Part shown: piece by piece, positions 19,712-33,754 of the stretch | Layout of the letters: every line of letters begins with the position of its first letter | How positions within the stretch are numbered: position 1 is the stretch's first letter | DNA from: a virus | Virus record (IMG/VR): IMGVR_UViG_3300021961_000306 | Span: 1 to 34,988 of that record | Strand: one strand, 5' to 3' | Length of the DNA: 34,988 bases | Notes under the pieces: model-generated | What the model was told of the DNA's origin: nothing | Databases searched by the model: none | The model's input: the letters and a program-made list of their open reading frames with translations, nothing else | Program-made: the position numbers and the translations under genes

Positions 19712-21166
19712 ATGATTTTTGAAATTCAAGCTACACGATTCGATGATGGCGACAAACAAACATTTTTCTATGACAACATGGCAAACGTGTTGAAAGACTC
19801 AGCTGGTAATGTATTTGAGTTTCCTGAAGAACAACGACACAACCACGCAACAACACCATATAAATCTTTCGACAAGAATCATCCTCTTAAAAAATCTAAA
19901 TTAATAAACCATCTCAAAATTCAGATGGGTCTAAGTTGTAATTATTCTTGTGATTATTGCTCACAAAAATTTGTTGAACGCCAACCTGAAACTTCCAAAA
20001 AAGATATTGATGATTTTATGGCCAAGTTGGAAAATTTACGATTTGATGAGGATGTTGGTTTATGGGTTGAATTTTGGGGTGGTGAACCACTTGTTTATTG
20101 GAAAACATTGAAACCTTTGGCAGAAGCCATTGCAGAGAAATTTGATAGTTGGAAAACAAAACCAACTTTTAGTATTATTACAAATGGTTCCATTTTAACT
20201 GATGAAATCATTGATTGGCTGATGATGATGGATTTTGCAGTGGCAATTTCACATGATGGTCCTGGTCAATTTGTACGTGGACCTGATCCTTTTGATGATC
20301 CTGAACAAAAAGAACGTATTCTTGGATTTTATCGCATGATGACTAGACTTGGTAAACAATTCAGCTTCAATGCCATGTTGAATTCGAAGAATCAAAGTAG
20401 AAAAGAAATTTATGACTGGTTTGTAAATTTGACTGGTGATGAAAATGTAATAATTGGTGAAGGTTCTCTTGTCGATGCATACGATGAAGAAGGTATTTCA
20501 AACTCACTATTGACTAAAAAAGAACATTTTGAATTTAGGCAACGTGCATTTGGTGAATTGTATGCATCAGGTGGTAATTTAAATTTTACGTCAACATTAG
20601 GTAAAATCAATTCATTTATTAATGATGTATTGTCACACAATGAATCTAAATATTTGGGTCAGAAATGTGGAATGGATGATGAACACGTAATTGCTGTTGA
20701 CTTGCGTGGTAATGTGATGACTTGCCAAAATGTTAGTTCATTAGAAATTTCTAAAAACGGCGAACCGCACCATGGCGGTAATTTAGATGACTATTCAAAT
20801 GTTGAATTGAAATCAGTTACACATTGGTCAAATCGTAAAGAGTGTCCAGAATGTCCTGTATTACATATCTGTAAAGGTGCATGTATGTTCTTAGACGAAA
20901 AATTCTGGGATATTTCATGTGCAAATGCCTATTCTGATAATGTGGCGTCTTTTGCAGCTGCATTTACTTTGATTACACAAGGTTATGTGCCTACATTAAT
21001 CAAAGGAGAAAATTTACCACTACATAGACAAGATGTTTTTGGTACCATTTTTGAACATGAAGAAGATGAAAATCGCAAAAAAATCATACCAATCAAGGTA
21101 GTTAAGGAGATTATTGGTACCGTTGATGATGTTGCAGTGTATGGTAAATCTCGTTTGGAAACCTAA
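19712..21166 (+). CDS. Radical SAM/SPASM protein, probable peptide or protein maturase
   Basis: A 484-residue protein. The radical SAM cluster motif is C76-x3-C80-x2-C83 (SCNYSCDYC), followed by GGEP at 123-126. The C-terminal SPASM domain is complete: C319-x13-G-x4-C338, then C378-x2-C381-x5-C387-x3-C391, then C403. This seven-Cys pattern holds two auxiliary 4Fe-4S clusters in enzymes that modify peptides and proteins, such as sactipeptide maturases and anaerobic sulfatase-maturating enzymes. The next gene encodes an Asn-Cys-rich protein, an obvious candidate substrate; that link is inference from adjacency. The first 65 residues may be a recognition region. A late-promoter motif precedes it. 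Confidence 0.88.
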   Translation: MIFEIQATRFDDGDKQTFFYDNMANVLKDSAGNVFEFPEEQRHNHATTPYKSFDKNHPLKKSKLINHLKIQMGLSCNYSCDYCSQKFVERQPETSKKDIDDFMAKLENLRFDEDVGLWVEFWGGEPLVYWKTLKPLAEAIAEKFDSWKTKPTFSIITNGSILTDEIIDWLMMMDFAVAISHDGPGQFVRGPDPFDDPEQKERILGFYRMMTRLGKQFSFNAMLNSKNQSRKEIYDWFVNLTGDENVIIGEGSLVDAYDEEGISNSLLTKKEHFEFRQRAFGELYASGGNLNFTSTLGKINSFINDVLSHNESKYLGQKCGMDDEHVIAVDLRGNVMTCQNVSSLEISKNGEPHHGGNLDDYSNVELKSVTHWSNRKECPECPVLHICKGACMFLDEKFWDISCANAYSDNVASFAAAFTLITQGYVPTLIKGENLPLHRQDVFGTIFEHEEDENRKKIIPIKVVKEIIGTVDDVAVYGKSRLET

Positions 21167-25445: not shown

Positions 25446-26987
25446 ATGAGAAAAGTTGATGGTATAATTTTTACTGGTACACAAAACAGTACAACAAATA
25501 ATAGGCCAGCTGGAGCAGCCAGGTTAAGAACATTTCTTGGCCAACACAATTATGATATTGAGGTTGTGGATTTTTTTTATGAATTTACGACCGATGAACT
25601 TTGTGCTGCCTGTGATAATTTCATAGATGAAACAACTTTGTTTGTTGGAGTAAGTATCACTTTCATTTATGAAACGGATAAAATCAATAAACTTTTTAAT
25701 CATATTAAAACAAAATATCCTAAAGTAAAAAGAATTATTGGTGGTTCAGAGGGTTCGGTCGAAGGTTTAGATGGAACATTAGTTGATAGATTTATATGGG
25801 GTTATTCTGAACAAGCTGTTTTACATTATTTAAAATTTCTACAAAGAAAAAGACTTGATGATTTGAAATGGGAACCTTATCACGGTTCATACGCTATTAA
25901 TGCGGAATCATTTTATAAAAATGATGACACCGATTTGACTATTAAATGGTTGGAATCCGATTTAATCAAAACAAATTTTTTGCCAATAGAAATAAGTAGG
26001 GGTTGCATTTTTAAATGTAGATTTTGTCAATTCCCTTTATTGGGTAAGAAAAAAAGTGATTATATTAGACATGTTGATAACCTAACTGATGAAATTCGCA
26101 GAAATTATGAAATGTTTGGAGTAACAAATTATTGGTTCAATGATGATACACTCAATGATAATATTATTAAATTGGAATACATTGCTGAAGCTATTCAAAA
26201 GAGTGGAGTGAAAATAACATATAGTGCATTTTTACGAGCAGACTTAATGGCCAGATTTCCTGAAACTATTCCAATGTTAGCAGATACGGGTTTAGCCTCA
26301 GCTGTTTTTGGTATAGAAACATTACATCCATTGGCCAAAAAAATTGTTGGAAAAGGACAAGATTCAGAAAGACAGTTTGATGCCATTAGACAACTAAAAA
26401 AACTTGCTCCTATATGGACACAAACTGGAATGATTGTTGGATTACCTGAAGAACCTTTGTCTAGTATTTTTCAAACTCAGAAAACCTTTCTTGAAATGAA
26501 TGAAAATTTTGAAGTATTAAACCAGTGGTTTTGGTTTTCTTTAACACTCAGGAAAAAAGGAATGACACGTTTAAGTGAATTCGAAAGAGAACATGAAAAA
26601 TATGGTTATTCTGAAATGGATGTAAATGAATTAAAAAAAGGATATTTGAATTTAGATAGTCTTATAATACACTTTGGAAATGAAAAGACGATGTATTGGA
26701 AAAATAAATACACCAATTTTTTTCAAGCAAATTACATTGCTGAGATTTTGAACCAAGAAGTTGAAAAATTTAGATTGGAACGTGGTATGAGATACACTGA
26801 CCAACCAATAGGTGAACACAATAACGCATGGGGACATATTGCACTTTTACCACACGAACTTATTGGTTTAGGATTTACACCAAAGGAAATTGTGGAAGGA
26901 ACAATCGACAAAAAATTGTTATTTGAAAAAATGAAACAATCAAAAAATGATATTAAGAATTACAAAAAACTAAAATTAGGATTATAA
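25446..26987 (+). CDS. Radical SAM protein with N-terminal B12-binding-like domain
   Basis: A 513-residue protein. Residues 1-135 look like the Rossmann domain found at the N-terminus of B12-dependent radical SAM enzymes (LRTFLGQHNYDIEVVDFF, then RIIGGSEGSVEGL), but no clear DxHxxG cobalamin-binding motif is visible. The radical SAM motif follows: C187-x3-C191-x2-C194 (GCIFKCRFC). Downstream are FGIETLHP and TGMIVGLPEEP, typical of the TIM-barrel. Family members perform methylations, methylthiolations and ring rearrangements. The last 130 residues are family-specific. The stop shares a base with the next ATG. Confidence 0.82.
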   Translation: MRKVDGIIFTGTQNSTTNNRPAGAARLRTFLGQHNYDIEVVDFFYEFTTDELCAACDNFIDETTLFVGVSITFIYETDKINKLFNHIKTKYPKVKRIIGGSEGSVEGLDGTLVDRFIWGYSEQAVLHYLKFLQRKRLDDLKWEPYHGSYAINAESFYKNDDTDLTIKWLESDLIKTNFLPIEISRGCIFKCRFCQFPLLGKKKSDYIRHVDNLTDEIRRNYEMFGVTNYWFNDDTLNDNIIKLEYIAEAIQKSGVKITYSAFLRADLMARFPETIPMLADTGLASAVFGIETLHPLAKKIVGKGQDSERQFDAIRQLKKLAPIWTQTGMIVGLPEEPLSSIFQTQKTFLEMNENFEVLNQWFWFSLTLRKKGMTRLSEFEREHEKYGYSEMDVNELKKGYLNLDSLIIHFGNEKTMYWKNKYTNFFQANYIAEILNQEVEKFRLERGMRYTDQPIGEHNNAWGHIALLPHELIGLGFTPKEIVEGTIDKKLLFEKMKQSKNDIKNYKKLKLGL

Positions 26988-27646
26988 TGTTTGTTTATTG
27001 CCCACCAATAGAGATTCCAAAAATTGAATCTCAAACTTTTCCTGATGGGAAAAGATATTATGTCACACCAGATGGTAAAAAATTACCATCAGTGACCACA
27101 GTGGTGGGAGCTCAGAAAAAGCAGTCCATCTTGGAATGGCGCCGTAGAGTTGGAGAAGAAACTGCAAACAAAATCTCCAGACAAGCCACATCACGTGGTA
27201 CCAATATGCACACTATGTGTGAATATTATTTGAACAATGAACCAAAACCACCAGGTGTTGTTATGCCTGATGCAAAAGAGATGTTCATATCAATCAAACC
27301 ATATCTAAACAAAATCAATAATATACATTATCAAGAAGTTGGATTGTGGTCCGCACAACTTGGTCTGGCAGGCCGTGTTGACTGTATTGGTGAGTATGAA
27401 GGTAAGTTATCAGTCATTGATTTTAAAACATCAAAGAAGATTAAAAAACGTGAAGATATTTTGGATTACTTTTGGCAATGTACTGCATATGCATTGATGT
27501 ACGAAGAATTGGTTGGTACACCTATTGATGATTTGGTAATTATTATGGCCGTGGACAACGAACAACCAATGATTTTTAAAGAGAAAACACAAGACCACAT
27601 TGAAGGTCTAGTAAAAGCAATTGATTTTTACCACAAAAACAGTTGA
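26987..27646 (+). CDS. PD-(D/E)XK nuclease (RecB/Cas4-like)
   Basis: A 219-residue protein. SVTTVVGAQ near the N-terminus and RGTNMHTMCEYYL (conserved His) are followed by GLAGRVDCIGEYEGKLSVID, then FKTSKK. The D, D and K of the D...(D/E)xK site are seen in GRVD and DFKTSK. This is the RecB/Cas4-type nuclease fold, common as an exonuclease in T4-like phages. The lack of a Cys cluster argues against the 4Fe-4S Cas4 branch. The tmRNA promoter overlaps its stop codon. Confidence 0.8.
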   Translation: MFVYCPPIEIPKIESQTFPDGKRYYVTPDGKKLPSVTTVVGAQKKQSILEWRRRVGEETANKISRQATSRGTNMHTMCEYYLNNEPKPPGVVMPDAKEMFISIKPYLNKINNIHYQEVGLWSAQLGLAGRVDCIGEYEGKLSVIDFKTSKKIKKREDILDYFWQCTAYALMYEELVGTPIDDLVIIMAVDNEQPMIFKEKTQDHIEGLVKAIDFYHKNS

Positions 27647-27671
27647 CAAAATATCACGGTTGTGTTACAAT
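27643..27671 (+). promoter_or_regulatory. Sigma70-like promoter of the tmRNA gene
   Basis: TTGACA (27643-27648) overlaps the nuclease stop codon. A 17-bp spacer leads to TACAAT (27666-27671). Expected transcription start is near 27678, just before the acceptor piece, so the RNA can be made independently of the late cluster. An AATAAATA motif (27672-27679) also resembles a late promoter and could add late transcription. Confidence 0.8.
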
Positions 27672-27683
27672 AATAAATAATGT

Positions 27684-27748
27684 TATGGTTGTATGAAGCG
27701 ACTAGAAATGTATTCTGGACGGGAGTTCGAATCTCCCCACCTCCACCA
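27684..27748 (+). ncRNA. ssrA: Permuted tmRNA, acceptor piece (3' half of the tRNA-like domain)
   Basis: T arm GGGAG (27721-27725), loop TTCGAAT, CTCCC (27733-27737); acceptor strand CACCTCC (27738-27744); discriminator A27745; encoded CCA 27746-27748. The acceptor strand pairs fully with GGGGGTG at the start of the coding piece, giving G3-U70, the alanine identity element. UUCUG (27713-27717) pairs with CAGAA (27839-27843) and GGUUGU (27687-27692) with ACAACU (27848-27853), forming the two parts of helix P2. This piece lies upstream of the coding piece, the reverse of a normal ssrA gene. The exact 5' end is uncertain. Confidence 0.88.
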
Positions 27749-27804
27749 AAAGTGCTGGCAGCCGATAAAGTGCCACAGTCTGTCAGAGTCAGACCACTTC
27801 TGAT
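27749..27804 (+). ncRNA. Intervening segment of the permuted tmRNA precursor
   Basis: 56 bases between the CCA end and the mature 5' end of the coding piece, expected to be removed by host processing (RNase P at the 5' side). CCACTTCTG (27794-27802) is the exact reverse complement of CAGAAGTGG (27839-27847) in the coding piece. It could therefore pair with the P2 strand in the precursor only. Confidence 0.7.
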
Positions 27805-27970
27805 GGGGGTGTACTTGGTTTCGACAGGGTAAATAGTACAGAAGTGGACAACTCACCAGAGTAGGTGTAAAAACTAAATCAAGTAAACGCAAACGATGAA
27901 AAGTTCGCATTGGCAGCCTAAACGCTGACTAGGGTTTCGGTTGGTTTCCTCGTAACAGAATAACCAACCA
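27805..27970 (+). ncRNA. ssrA: Permuted tmRNA, coding piece (tag ANDEKFALAA)
   Basis: Starts GGGGGTG, then the conserved D-loop-like GGTTTCGACAGGG (27817-27829). The resume codon GCA is at 27889, preceded by AGTAAAC. The reading frame 27889-27921 encodes ANDEKFALAA and a TAA stop. The stop lies in the loop of a CAGC/GCTG hairpin (27914-27917 with 27924-27927), as in helix P5. A perfect 8-bp hairpin GGTTGGTT/AACCAACC (27939-27946 with 27962-27969) closes the piece. The tmRNA rescues stalled ribosomes and tags the peptide for proteolysis, with host SmpB. The 3' end is approximate. Confidence 0.9.
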
Positions 27971-27985
27971 CTGAATGGAGTAATA

Positions 27986-28564
27986 ATGCAAAAAATTTGG
28001 TCTAGGCGTGAGATTTCCATAGCAGATGAGTTAATGGAATTGGCACCTAAATTAACACAAGAATTTTTAGAATACCACAAAGATTTTGATACAACCTTTA
28101 GTGGTGGTATTTCATATGCTGCATCTAATCCAGAAGCAATTTTGGACGAGCATGAAAAGGTCGTATGGAAAGTAGAAGGCCTACGATACGCATTACCAGA
28201 CAAAAACATAGAACATAATTTCTTCTTACAACCAAGAGTGAGAATGATATTTCCAACGGCTGCATCACTAACACAAAAATATATTGCCTATGTGGGTTGT
28301 AGTGGTTATAGTGTGTTGGATGCTGGAGGAATTATTAAAGGTCATGTGGACATTGAGAATCGTTCCCGCAAGACAGTAAGGATTCATATACCATTAATCA
28401 TACCAGAAGGCGATGCTGCACTGGAAGTTGATGGTGTAAAACAGAATTGGTCCGACTTATTTGCATTTGACAATGCTGAATTGCATAGTGCATATAACAA
28501 GACTGATAAAAGAAGGCTGATTTATATCATAGATATATCTAAGTCACTATTGTTTAACAACTAG
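27986..28564 (+). CDS. Aspartyl/asparaginyl beta-hydroxylase-like protein
   Basis: A 192-residue protein with GGAG 8 bases before the ATG, starting about 16 bases after the tmRNA. The family pattern is clear: GHVDIEN (H120, D122), R132 in VRIHIPLI, H167 in AELHSAYN and R177 in KRRLIYIID. It is compact and has no signal peptide. It is the second Asp/Asn-hydroxylase-like gene in 4 kb. It may be transcribed from the tmRNA promoter, which would make the tmRNA part of its leader before processing. Confidence 0.8.
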   Translation: MQKIWSRREISIADELMELAPKLTQEFLEYHKDFDTTFSGGISYAASNPEAILDEHEKVVWKVEGLRYALPDKNIEHNFFLQPRVRMIFPTAASLTQKYIAYVGCSGYSVLDAGGIIKGHVDIENRSRKTVRIHIPLIIPEGDAALEVDGVKQNWSDLFAFDNAELHSAYNKTDKRRLIYIIDISKSLLFNN

Positions 28565-32315: not shown

Positions 32316-32337
32316 CCCCGCTTCGGCGGGGTTTTTT
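32316..32337 (+). terminator. Rho-independent terminator after gp32
   Basis: CCCCGC TTCG GCGGGG followed by six Ts (32332-32337): a 6-bp GC stem with a stable UUCG tetraloop and a U-run. It acts on the + strand. The T-run also contains the stop codon of the opposing gene (TAA on the minus strand at 32338-32336). Confidence 0.95.
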
Positions 32338-33754
32338 ATGCAAAAACGGATTGTTCAAGTAAATCACGGAAAGTCTCATCAGTATTTCTAACAGCAATTT
32401 GTATTACACTTAGTCCTTTATTTTGTGATGCTGAATTTACAACCGTATTTGACGCTGTTGTAACTGATGGAGTATTTGATTTAATTGGTGGACTAGAAAA
32501 AACAGTATTATCTCTTGACAAATTGTTGATAGTTGTTCCACCACTAGCAACACGTTGAACGGGTGCGGCCTTACTAATTGGTGTATTAGTGAAGTCTGGT
32601 CCGTCATCATTTGGTGTAGTGGGAGGGTTTGGTACTTGTTGTGAATTAGGTTGGCGTTGAAGTGTTCCCCTTCTTTCTCTAGGATTTACTGGTTCTGGGC
32701 CAGCAGGCACCTCAGGAAATAATTGGTCAAGATCCGTTTTTCTTTCACCTTGTTTTTCTAAAAACCTTCTTTTATCTTCTTCAGAACCATACAATTTCAA
32801 ATACCAAGGCGCATTTTTTTCTTTCAACAATTGATTAATTCTGTCATATCTTTCATCCTGTAATAATCTATCTGCATCAGTTTTATTTCTACTGTTTAAT
32901 ATAATTGATGCTGCTTCAGATGTGCCAGTAGTGTCACCACTATTAGCTAATTGTTCCAGTTGTTCATCCGTCATGCTTTCCAGTTGATTCACAAGGCCAG
33001 TACCTAATACTGTGCCACCAATTACAACAGCTCCTATTGGATTCGTTGCAGCCAACCAACCCCATCTACCAAGTTTCATCAAACCATTAACCAACGGTAG
33101 ACCTAATTTCTTTGCGATTTCTATCATTGCATCTTTTAATGACATAACAACGTCAGCTAAACCTTTTAATTTTTGCCATAACATATTAAGAAAACTATTG
33201 TCTTGTTCGGCTGTTGCTGTGACAGTTGTGGCACCACCCATGTTTTTCACCAATTTTTTCAGAGTTTCTATCAATTCTCTGTGGCGTCTTTCTCTTTCGT
33301 TACTCAATTCTTCTTCGGAATTATTTTCTAATTGTTGTTGTTTAGTATCATCTTCACGGCTAGATTTTAAGAAGTCATAAATTTTTGCTAATTGTTCATT
33401 GATACCTTGCATACCGGTGTCAGGTGATGGACCAATTCTATCTGCGGTATTATTACCACCTTTAATAGCTCTTGTTCTATTGGTGAAATAGTCAATATCT
33501 TTTTGACTTCTACCCATCATTTTACCATAAAGAGCAGGACCCAATTTTGAACCAAATGTTAAAAACTTAGCAATGTTCAAAGGATCAAATTTTTCTTTGT
33601 AACCTTTTAATCGTGCTGATGTTCTTAGTGAAATGGTTCTACCAACAGCACCAAGAACACCAGTGTCTTTTTGGGCCAATTGGTCAACAAATAAATCAGT
33701 GAATCTTGTCTTTCTGATTTTTCTTGCTTGTTGATAACTTAAATTATTAGCCAT
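32336..33754 (-). CDS. Probable structural (tail/baseplate-associated) protein (472 aa)
   Basis: Read on the minus strand, starting one base after the stop of the upstream gene at 33756. Residues 1-110 are basic and helical (YQQARKIRKTRFTDLFVD). A charged coiled coil follows (NSEEELSNERERRHRELIET). A central hydrophobic region (AATNPIGAVVIGGTVLGTGL) is next, and a long Pro/Asn/Thr-rich tail closes the protein. This modular, low-complexity layout is typical of phage virion proteins; no enzyme motif is seen. The stop codon lies in the gp32 terminator. Confidence 0.65.
   Translation of the reverse strand: MANNLSYQQARKIRKTRFTDLFVDQLAQKDTGVLGAVGRTISLRTSARLKGYKEKFDPLNIAKFLTFGSKLGPALYGKMMGRSQKDIDYFTNRTRAIKGGNNTADRIGPSPDTGMQGINEQLAKIYDFLKSSREDDTKQQQLENNSEEELSNERERRHRELIETLKKLVKNMGGATTVTATAEQDNSFLNMLWQKLKGLADVVMSLKDAMIEIAKKLGLPLVNGLMKLGRWGWLAATNPIGAVVIGGTVLGTGLVNQLESMTDEQLEQLANSGDTTGTSEAASIILNSRNKTDADRLLQDERYDRINQLLKEKNAPWYLKLYGSEEDKRRFLEKQGERKTDLDQLFPEVPAGPEPVNPRERRGTLQRQPNSQQVPNPPTTPNDDGPDFTNTPISKAAPVQRVASGGTTINNLSRDNTVFSSPPIKSNTPSVTTASNTVVNSASQNKGLSVIQIAVRNTDETFRDLLEQSVFA

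Follow-up and report, generated by a model that had tools for sequence, protein, structure and literature searches.

A circularly permuted, two-piece tmRNA gene in a putatively T4-like phage and candidate protein genes in the spacer of its relatives

The question raised by this locus is whether a phage genome carries a working tmRNA gene whose two halves stand in permuted order and, if so, what the spacer between the halves contains. The stretch of DNA analysed, hereafter the window, comprises the 34,988 nucleotides of a virus record (IMGVR_UViG_3300021961_000306); the tmRNA gene, its parts and its two neighbouring genes all lie on the plus strand. A permuted tmRNA gene of betaproteobacterial style was located at approximately 27684-27985. 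Searches with cmscan gave full-length matches to two Rfam families, namely RF01850 (beta_tmRNA; 27629-27983, 132.2 bits with a cut-off of 84, E-value 2.5e-40, model positions 1-331 of 331) and RF04321 (tmRNA_permuted; 27687-27921, 119.6 bits with a cut-off of 47, model positions 1-213 of 213), and ARAGORN called a permuted tmRNA with the tag ANDEKFALAA. The order of the parts in the window, an acceptor half with CCA followed by an intervening sequence (IVS, the spacer) and then the coding half, is that of the permuted beta-type tmRNAs. The permuted topology claimed in the original prediction, which had proposed Infernal with the two-piece Rfam models and ARAGORN in permuted mode as checks, was borne out by these significant matches and by the ARAGORN call. 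A chance match or a one-piece tmRNA was ruled out by the full-length covariance-model matches together with the covariation described below.

The acceptor half (27684-27748) was delimited using the RF04321 and RF01850 alignments and motif positions. It contains the 5' strand of P2 (27687-27691, with its partner at about 27849-27853 in the RF04321 model) and, as read from the sequence, the T arm (27721-27737), the acceptor 3' strand CACCTCC (27738-27744), the discriminator A (27745) and CCA (27746-27748). The spacer that follows (27749-27804) is 56 nt long and non-coding in the window; its ends form a stem extending the acceptor stem, and the conserved TGAT precedes the cut site. The coding, mRNA-like half (27805-27985; the RF01850 match reaches 27983) starts with the acceptor 5' strand GGGGGTG (27805-27811), which pairs at all seven positions with 27738-27744, yielding a complete stem whose third pair, G27807-U27742, is the G3-U70 alanine identity pair; the stem had been predicted in just this form. 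Further along lie GGTTTCGACAGGG (27817-27829) and the resume codon GCA (Ala) at 27889, both read from the sequence, and the tag frame ANDEKFALAA with its stop codon TAA (27889-27921; tag 27889-27918, stop 27919-27921), identified by ARAGORN and in the sequence. Every motif that had been named beforehand, from the T arm, CACCTCC, A and CCA to GGGGGTG, the resume codon, the tag and the stop, was found. The stop codon had also been placed within a P5-like hairpin. In the RNAalifold structure of 32 relatives it falls partly in a short helix (alignment columns 136-139/156-159), which adjoins the stronger, P5-like terminal hairpin GGTTGGTT/AACCAACC (27939-27969; strands 27939-27946 and 27962-27969). 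A predicted sigma-70-like promoter, TTGACA N17 TACAAT (27643-27671), agrees with the consensus at 11 of 12 positions and overlaps the 3' end of the upstream exonuclease gene; a TTGACA-like/TATAAT-like start was also visible in relatives.

The upstream gene encodes an exonuclease (26987-27646; PHROG 298, E-value 5.9e-75) and the downstream gene, taken from the list of open reading frames, a protein of 192 aa with no assigned function (27986-28564; weak matches to PHROG 25472 and 25655). The T4-like setting assumed at the outset was supported by a gp32-type ssDNA-binding protein encoded in the window (PHROG 224, 1e-107), for which the nearest isolates among the matches listed were T4-like cyanophages and Pelagibacter phage HTVC008M at 53-56% identity, and by the record of a close relative (L018), which has an exonuclease 93% identical to that of the window and the T4 gp23 capsid protein. 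The latter protein was present in 15 of the 48 related records searched, that of L018 included, and absent from the window record, which is a 35-kb fragment; the designation T4-like therefore rests on gp32 and on the relatives. Elsewhere in the window, 19712-21166 encodes a radical SAM protein (PHROG 1802, 5.5e-62), and the product of a minus-strand gene at 32336-33754 weakly matches endolysin (PHROG 790, 4e-4). A bacterial scan for the ANDEKF tag returned 12 stretches (11 from Cupriavidus and one from Pelistega), which does not identify the host, and this approach was dropped. One of the Cupriavidus genomes, that of Cupriavidus pinatubonensis HN-2, has five permuted tmRNA matches over the cut-off, and its copies with the ANDEKF tag are located on both chromosomes, plus two on plasmid p2.

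Conservation was assessed using 80 viral loci fetched as relatives of the upstream exonuclease (the syntenic set). RF04321 scored over its cut-off in 64 of these records (38/40 and 26/40 in two batches), with three more sub-threshold matches, and in many relatives the tmRNA sits at the same site, downstream of the exonuclease. Because 16 of the 80 records, some of which stop near the gene, have no over-threshold RF04321 match, the tmRNA gene does not occur throughout the group. A strict parser demanding 7/7 acceptor pairs and G3-U70 distinguished eight acceptor-stem sequences among 58 syntenic loci; it discards copies in which fewer than seven acceptor pairs form, the T stem is imperfect or CCA is missing (e.g. 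L204). With a looser parser, which did not demand G3-U70, 50 of the 80 loci were parsed, all with 7/7 pairs and G3-U70. Compensatory changes among relatives were found in the acceptor stem, the spacer stem and the 3' hairpin, and RNAalifold, given an alignment of 32 coding halves out of a total of 35 distinct ones, yielded 11 consensus pairs for the two helices of this half together, eight of which show compensatory changes, mainly in the 3' hairpin.

In 281 of the 290 loci parsed by the strict script the tag is intact and closes with AA or VA; the misses are eight ORF-bearing loci with longer or atypical tags and one further locus. The eight (coding halves of L319, L329, L338, L341, L348, L355, L368 and L390) have frames of approximately 27-29 aa such as ANADTFEFGAMSFTGNTVSGKSKVALAA, or the ends SLAV, AVLA or LLAANA instead of LAA, and L348 sits in a 338-kb record with gp23. 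The C-terminal ALAA is the part of the tag read by proteases. It is often altered in phage tags (RLAA, LMAA, MVA, PLAA and RIAA, in many viral loci), and rescue without degradation is possible in such cases. T loops that lack the TpsiC U55 (GTGCGAATC) or belong to a GGCRGYA type were also observed (L007, L013, L014, L025, L041 and others; L028, L063 and L084), and L028 differs from the window in its first third and has the same tag segment. The tmRNA gene itself looks mosaic.

Both halves, their pairing, the covariation, the intact tag and the upkeep in most relatives support the reading that the window very probably encodes a functional phage tmRNA of beta type, made in two pieces from a permuted gene, which would perform ordinary trans-translation with host SmpB and whose spacer would be an exchange site in the family. 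The steps of transcription, processing, charging and tagging are modelled on established tmRNA biology. The precursor would probably be transcribed from the promoter at 27643-27671; host RNase P would cut before G27805 and 3' processing would take place after the CCA ending at 27748, thereby removing the 56-nt spacer. The two pieces would stay together through the acceptor stem and P2, and the pair would be charged with alanine via G3-U70; the charged two-piece tmRNA would then bind host SmpB and free stalled ribosomes, the nascent protein being tagged with ANDEKFALAA for proteolysis. No SmpB gene was found in the 36 phage records searched, the window record included, so the function of the tmRNA would depend on the host. 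Since the tag is a canonical degradation tag and no SmpB was found, the phage seems to boost or redirect host ribosome rescue.

The lack of SmpB in these 36 records would also suit a decoy that, rather than rescuing ribosomes, shuts down host trans-translation by tying up host SmpB or alanyl-tRNA synthetase, and PMC4131195 and PMC11915505 report that a tRNA-like-only tmRNA of mycobacteriophage DS6A, or a similar molecule, inhibits tmRNA. However, a decoy needs the tRNA-like part only, and the retention of the mRNA-like half, the resume codon and, in the 281 loci, the tag argues against this reading, which we consider unlikely. Accidental capture of host ssrA (e.g. by imprecise excision), with the gene carried along without function, appears more improbable still: ssrA fragments in prophages are discussed in PMC9004378 and some syntenic relatives gave no match to the gene, but the compensatory changes in the acceptor stem, the IVS stem and the P5-like hairpin, the intact tags and the shared location 3' of the exonuclease in many relatives all speak against it.

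The unusual part of the locus is the content of the spacer in relatives, about which the original prediction had not asked. Spacer loci were drawn from four sources, namely the exonuclease neighbours, two junction patterns and one pattern selected for a Shine-Dalgarno sequence and ATG. From these the strict script recovered 290 tmRNAs, whose spacers, 178 of them distinct, are between 20 and 531 nt long. TGAT terminates 167 of the 174 spacers of at least 50 nt, and in 174 distinct IVS the spacer ends pair at 8.27 of 9 positions, as against 6.07 with tails swapped between loci (maximum 6.34 in 1000 swaps); the ends of the window's own spacer pair at 6 of 9 positions only. By both ORF tests, the 56-nt IVS of the window has no ORF with a Shine-Dalgarno sequence, whereas relatives do have such ORFs, termed cargo here. 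Cargo was not seen with the acceptor stem of the window in a scan of that class, which allowed spacers of 35-65 nt only. A conserved non-coding core (CTGCGCCGTGCG...ATGACTAAGGTATCACGGACATCC) lies in the IVS of L011/L020-type and L068-type loci, within wholly different outer stems, and is possibly a structured RNA cargo. In L029 a small ORF (MDKLFLLVIVVGLHAYWIYKL...) follows the promoter and precedes the acceptor half of the tmRNA; cargo may therefore also enter the leader.

In 57 of the 178 distinct spacers (81 loci), a start with a Shine-Dalgarno sequence opens a reading frame that is 20 aa or longer and extends to the spacer end. An earlier, looser count had given 67 ORF candidates of at least 18 aa; the figure of 57, with the longer minimum and a tighter end rule, was adopted. 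Three long spacers (L216, L230 and L285) fail the strict rule yet clearly hold genes, with two tandem ORFs in L285. It was considered whether spacer ORFs could be chance open frames or assembly errors and not genes. Open frames of about 20 aa can be random, as a mean of 1.6 and a maximum of 7 of the 58 distinct IVS of at least 75 nt passed after shuffling; moreover, two near-identical family pairs are without synonymous change and one cargo family (MYK) has a pN/pS of 0.68, on few changes. However, 22 of the 58 IVS themselves passed and none did on the reverse strand (0/58), in a test that omitted the loci from the pattern selected for a Shine-Dalgarno sequence and ATG; among the distinct IVS of at least 100 nt in the same samples, 16 of 24 passed, or 19 when L216, L230 and L285 were included. 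The same cargo ORF recurs in many contigs from different metagenomes, and pN/pS is 0.15-0.38 in 8 of 11 cargo families (pooled 0.25), which indicates that the ORFs are under purifying selection. Four of 20 cargo proteins scored over the curated Pfam cut-offs, as thioredoxin (4e-21; L335/L398), GNAT acetyltransferase (2e-6; L230), CxxCxxCC protein (L025) and PGDYG protein (L312), the other 16 giving no match. With the reverse strand, the pooled pN/pS, the recurrence and the thioredoxin and GNAT matches all against it, an origin of the ORFs by chance or misassembly is hardly credible, and they are taken to be genes.

RF04321 scored over its cut-off in all 14 long-IVS loci tested, of which 12 are in the strict-script ORF list, L345 is outside it and L204 has its cargo shown as L414. 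Annotation would gain from this model, which recovers several long-spacer copies missed by ARAGORN (e.g. L025, L027 and L041).

Exchange of cargo between tmRNA backbones is apparent from several comparisons. The acceptor halves of L013 and L025 are identical (65/65), as are their coding halves (180/180), and their spacers are unrelated (152 versus 284 nt). A cargo of 122 aa was found at 16 loci, at one of them as part of a larger protein and at the other 15 in a tmRNA spacer, on clearly different backbones (13 with both flanks and two interrupted by the contig end); a cargo of 64 aa was found at 10 loci, five in spacers on different backbones and five free-standing in other phages. Some backbones have a GGCAGTA-like T loop, which was also seen in five bacterial copies, and these we read as alpha-type. 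At the family level the spacer appears as an exchange site holding either a non-coding stem-loop, as in the window, or protein-coding cargo, and the nesting and exchange of cargo genes are well supported by the sequences compared.

How such cargo would be expressed was considered in the light of its fit to the spacer. The Shine-Dalgarno strand is complementary to the final codons of the ORF that it serves (10.26 of 11 positions versus 8.70 when swapped; maximum 9.12 in 2000), so the precursor would be expected to mask the cargo start site, and 41 of the 57 cargo stop codons end exactly 1 nt before the coding half, the predicted RNase P site. Cutting would leave a message ending one base past the cargo stop, and trimming would turn the cargo RNA into a non-stop message, policed by the tmRNA from which it came. 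We hypothesise that cargo expression is coupled to tmRNA processing or to trans-translation. In its full form, the proposal would make the tmRNA gene a gene-carrying platform, the excised spacer being a small mRNA, its cargo (a thioredoxin, an acetyltransferase, membrane peptides and further products) being swapped across alpha-like and beta-like backbones and its translation being coupled to maturation; this is advanced tentatively, as a possibility well short of an even chance. That the cargo ORF is instead an independent gene that landed in the spacer, with expression unrelated to tmRNA processing, has a probability that we would set a little under even. The free-standing relatives of the 64-aa cargo mean that cargo genes can live elsewhere, in line with independence, but the stop position 1 nt from the cut and the covariation of the Shine-Dalgarno strand with the ORF end tell against it, as they indicate cargo fitted to the spacer stem. 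The spacer stem itself may be needed for tmRNA folding alone.

No cargo-type ORF was found in the spacers of the few cultured phages with a permuted tmRNA that were inspected (L002, L003, L004 and L425-L427), and no Shine-Dalgarno ORF filling the spacer was seen in five longer bacterial copies inspected by eye. A thioredoxin match in Limnohabitans phage DC31 was rejected: it lies directly 3' of a gene for ribonucleotide reductase, and no tmRNA is annotated there. No description of protein genes in a tmRNA IVS was found in the open-access literature searched, and the exchangeable protein genes in the spacer of relatives, the new part of this work, seem undescribed. Taken alone, the window adds one more phage-borne two-piece tmRNA. 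In the family, a gene regarded as encoding RNA and nothing more houses exchangeable protein genes within the segment discarded at maturation. This, if true, would be a novel form of gene nesting and a hot spot of small phage proteins, easily overlooked in annotation; it would also offer a directly testable case of mRNA set free by tRNA-processing enzymes.

The original prediction had implied that no permuted tmRNA was described in a T4-like phage. This novelty claim fails because the two-piece tmRNA of Melnitz, a T4-like phage of OM43, was published in 2022 (PMC9004378) and a permuted tmRNA is likewise present in Menderavirus, a group of T4-like phages of Stenotrophomonas; the acceptor half was matched in 16 Stenotrophomonas records, of which L002 was examined closely. 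Of the 133 distinct phage tmRNAs counted in PMC9004378, 53 are two-piece; PMC11915505 gives 79 tmRNA sequences from bacteriophages and is the source of the permuted model applied here, and PMC4131195 lists earlier phage tmRNAs. Melnitz and related marine myophages are like the window in having a permuted two-piece tmRNA in a T4-like myophage. However, the Melnitz ssrA is alphaproteobacterial and coupled to a glutamine riboswitch according to the accessible text of PMC9004378, whereas the window gene is matched best by the beta model and adjoins an exonuclease gene; that same text does not mention protein genes in the spacer of Melnitz-type ssrA, unlike the situation in the cargo-bearing relatives. 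The permuted tmRNAs of Menderavirus and other Xanthomonadales phages (OR797040, OQ427096, PQ569993 and ON331942), one group of which is T4-like, differ in having non-coding spacers and divergent tags. Mendera is called T4-like in PMC6940306, which cites ARAGORN and, in its available portion, contains the term 'tmRNA' only in that reference. Nested genes are likewise represented by the group I introns with homing endonucleases in tmRNA genes and the tRNA-Ala in the IVS of a permuted gene described in PMC11915505; in the cases given in the accessible part of that paper the nested gene is housed in a self-splicing intron, or is that of a tRNA in a single genome, nominally archaeal, whereas here many different protein genes lie in an IVS whose removal by tRNA-processing enzymes would be expected.

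The betaproteobacterial tmRNAs of RF01850 have topology, motifs and tag type in common with the window, as reflected in the 132-bit full-length match, and differ in that the window copy resides in a phage. Among 299 genomes of Pseudomonadota there are 89 RF04321 matches above 95 bits, which span 193-332 nt (weaker matches reach 436 nt), as against up to 512-622 nt in the cargo-bearing phage copies (L335 and L204); the spans of these 89, which are those of the whole RF04321 match and not of the spacer, would leave little room for long cargo in bacteria. ArfA is encoded by a short gene whose expression depends on the efficiency of trans-translation. It is neither homologous to the cargo nor nested in a tmRNA gene, and it offers an analogy for the cargo genes described here.
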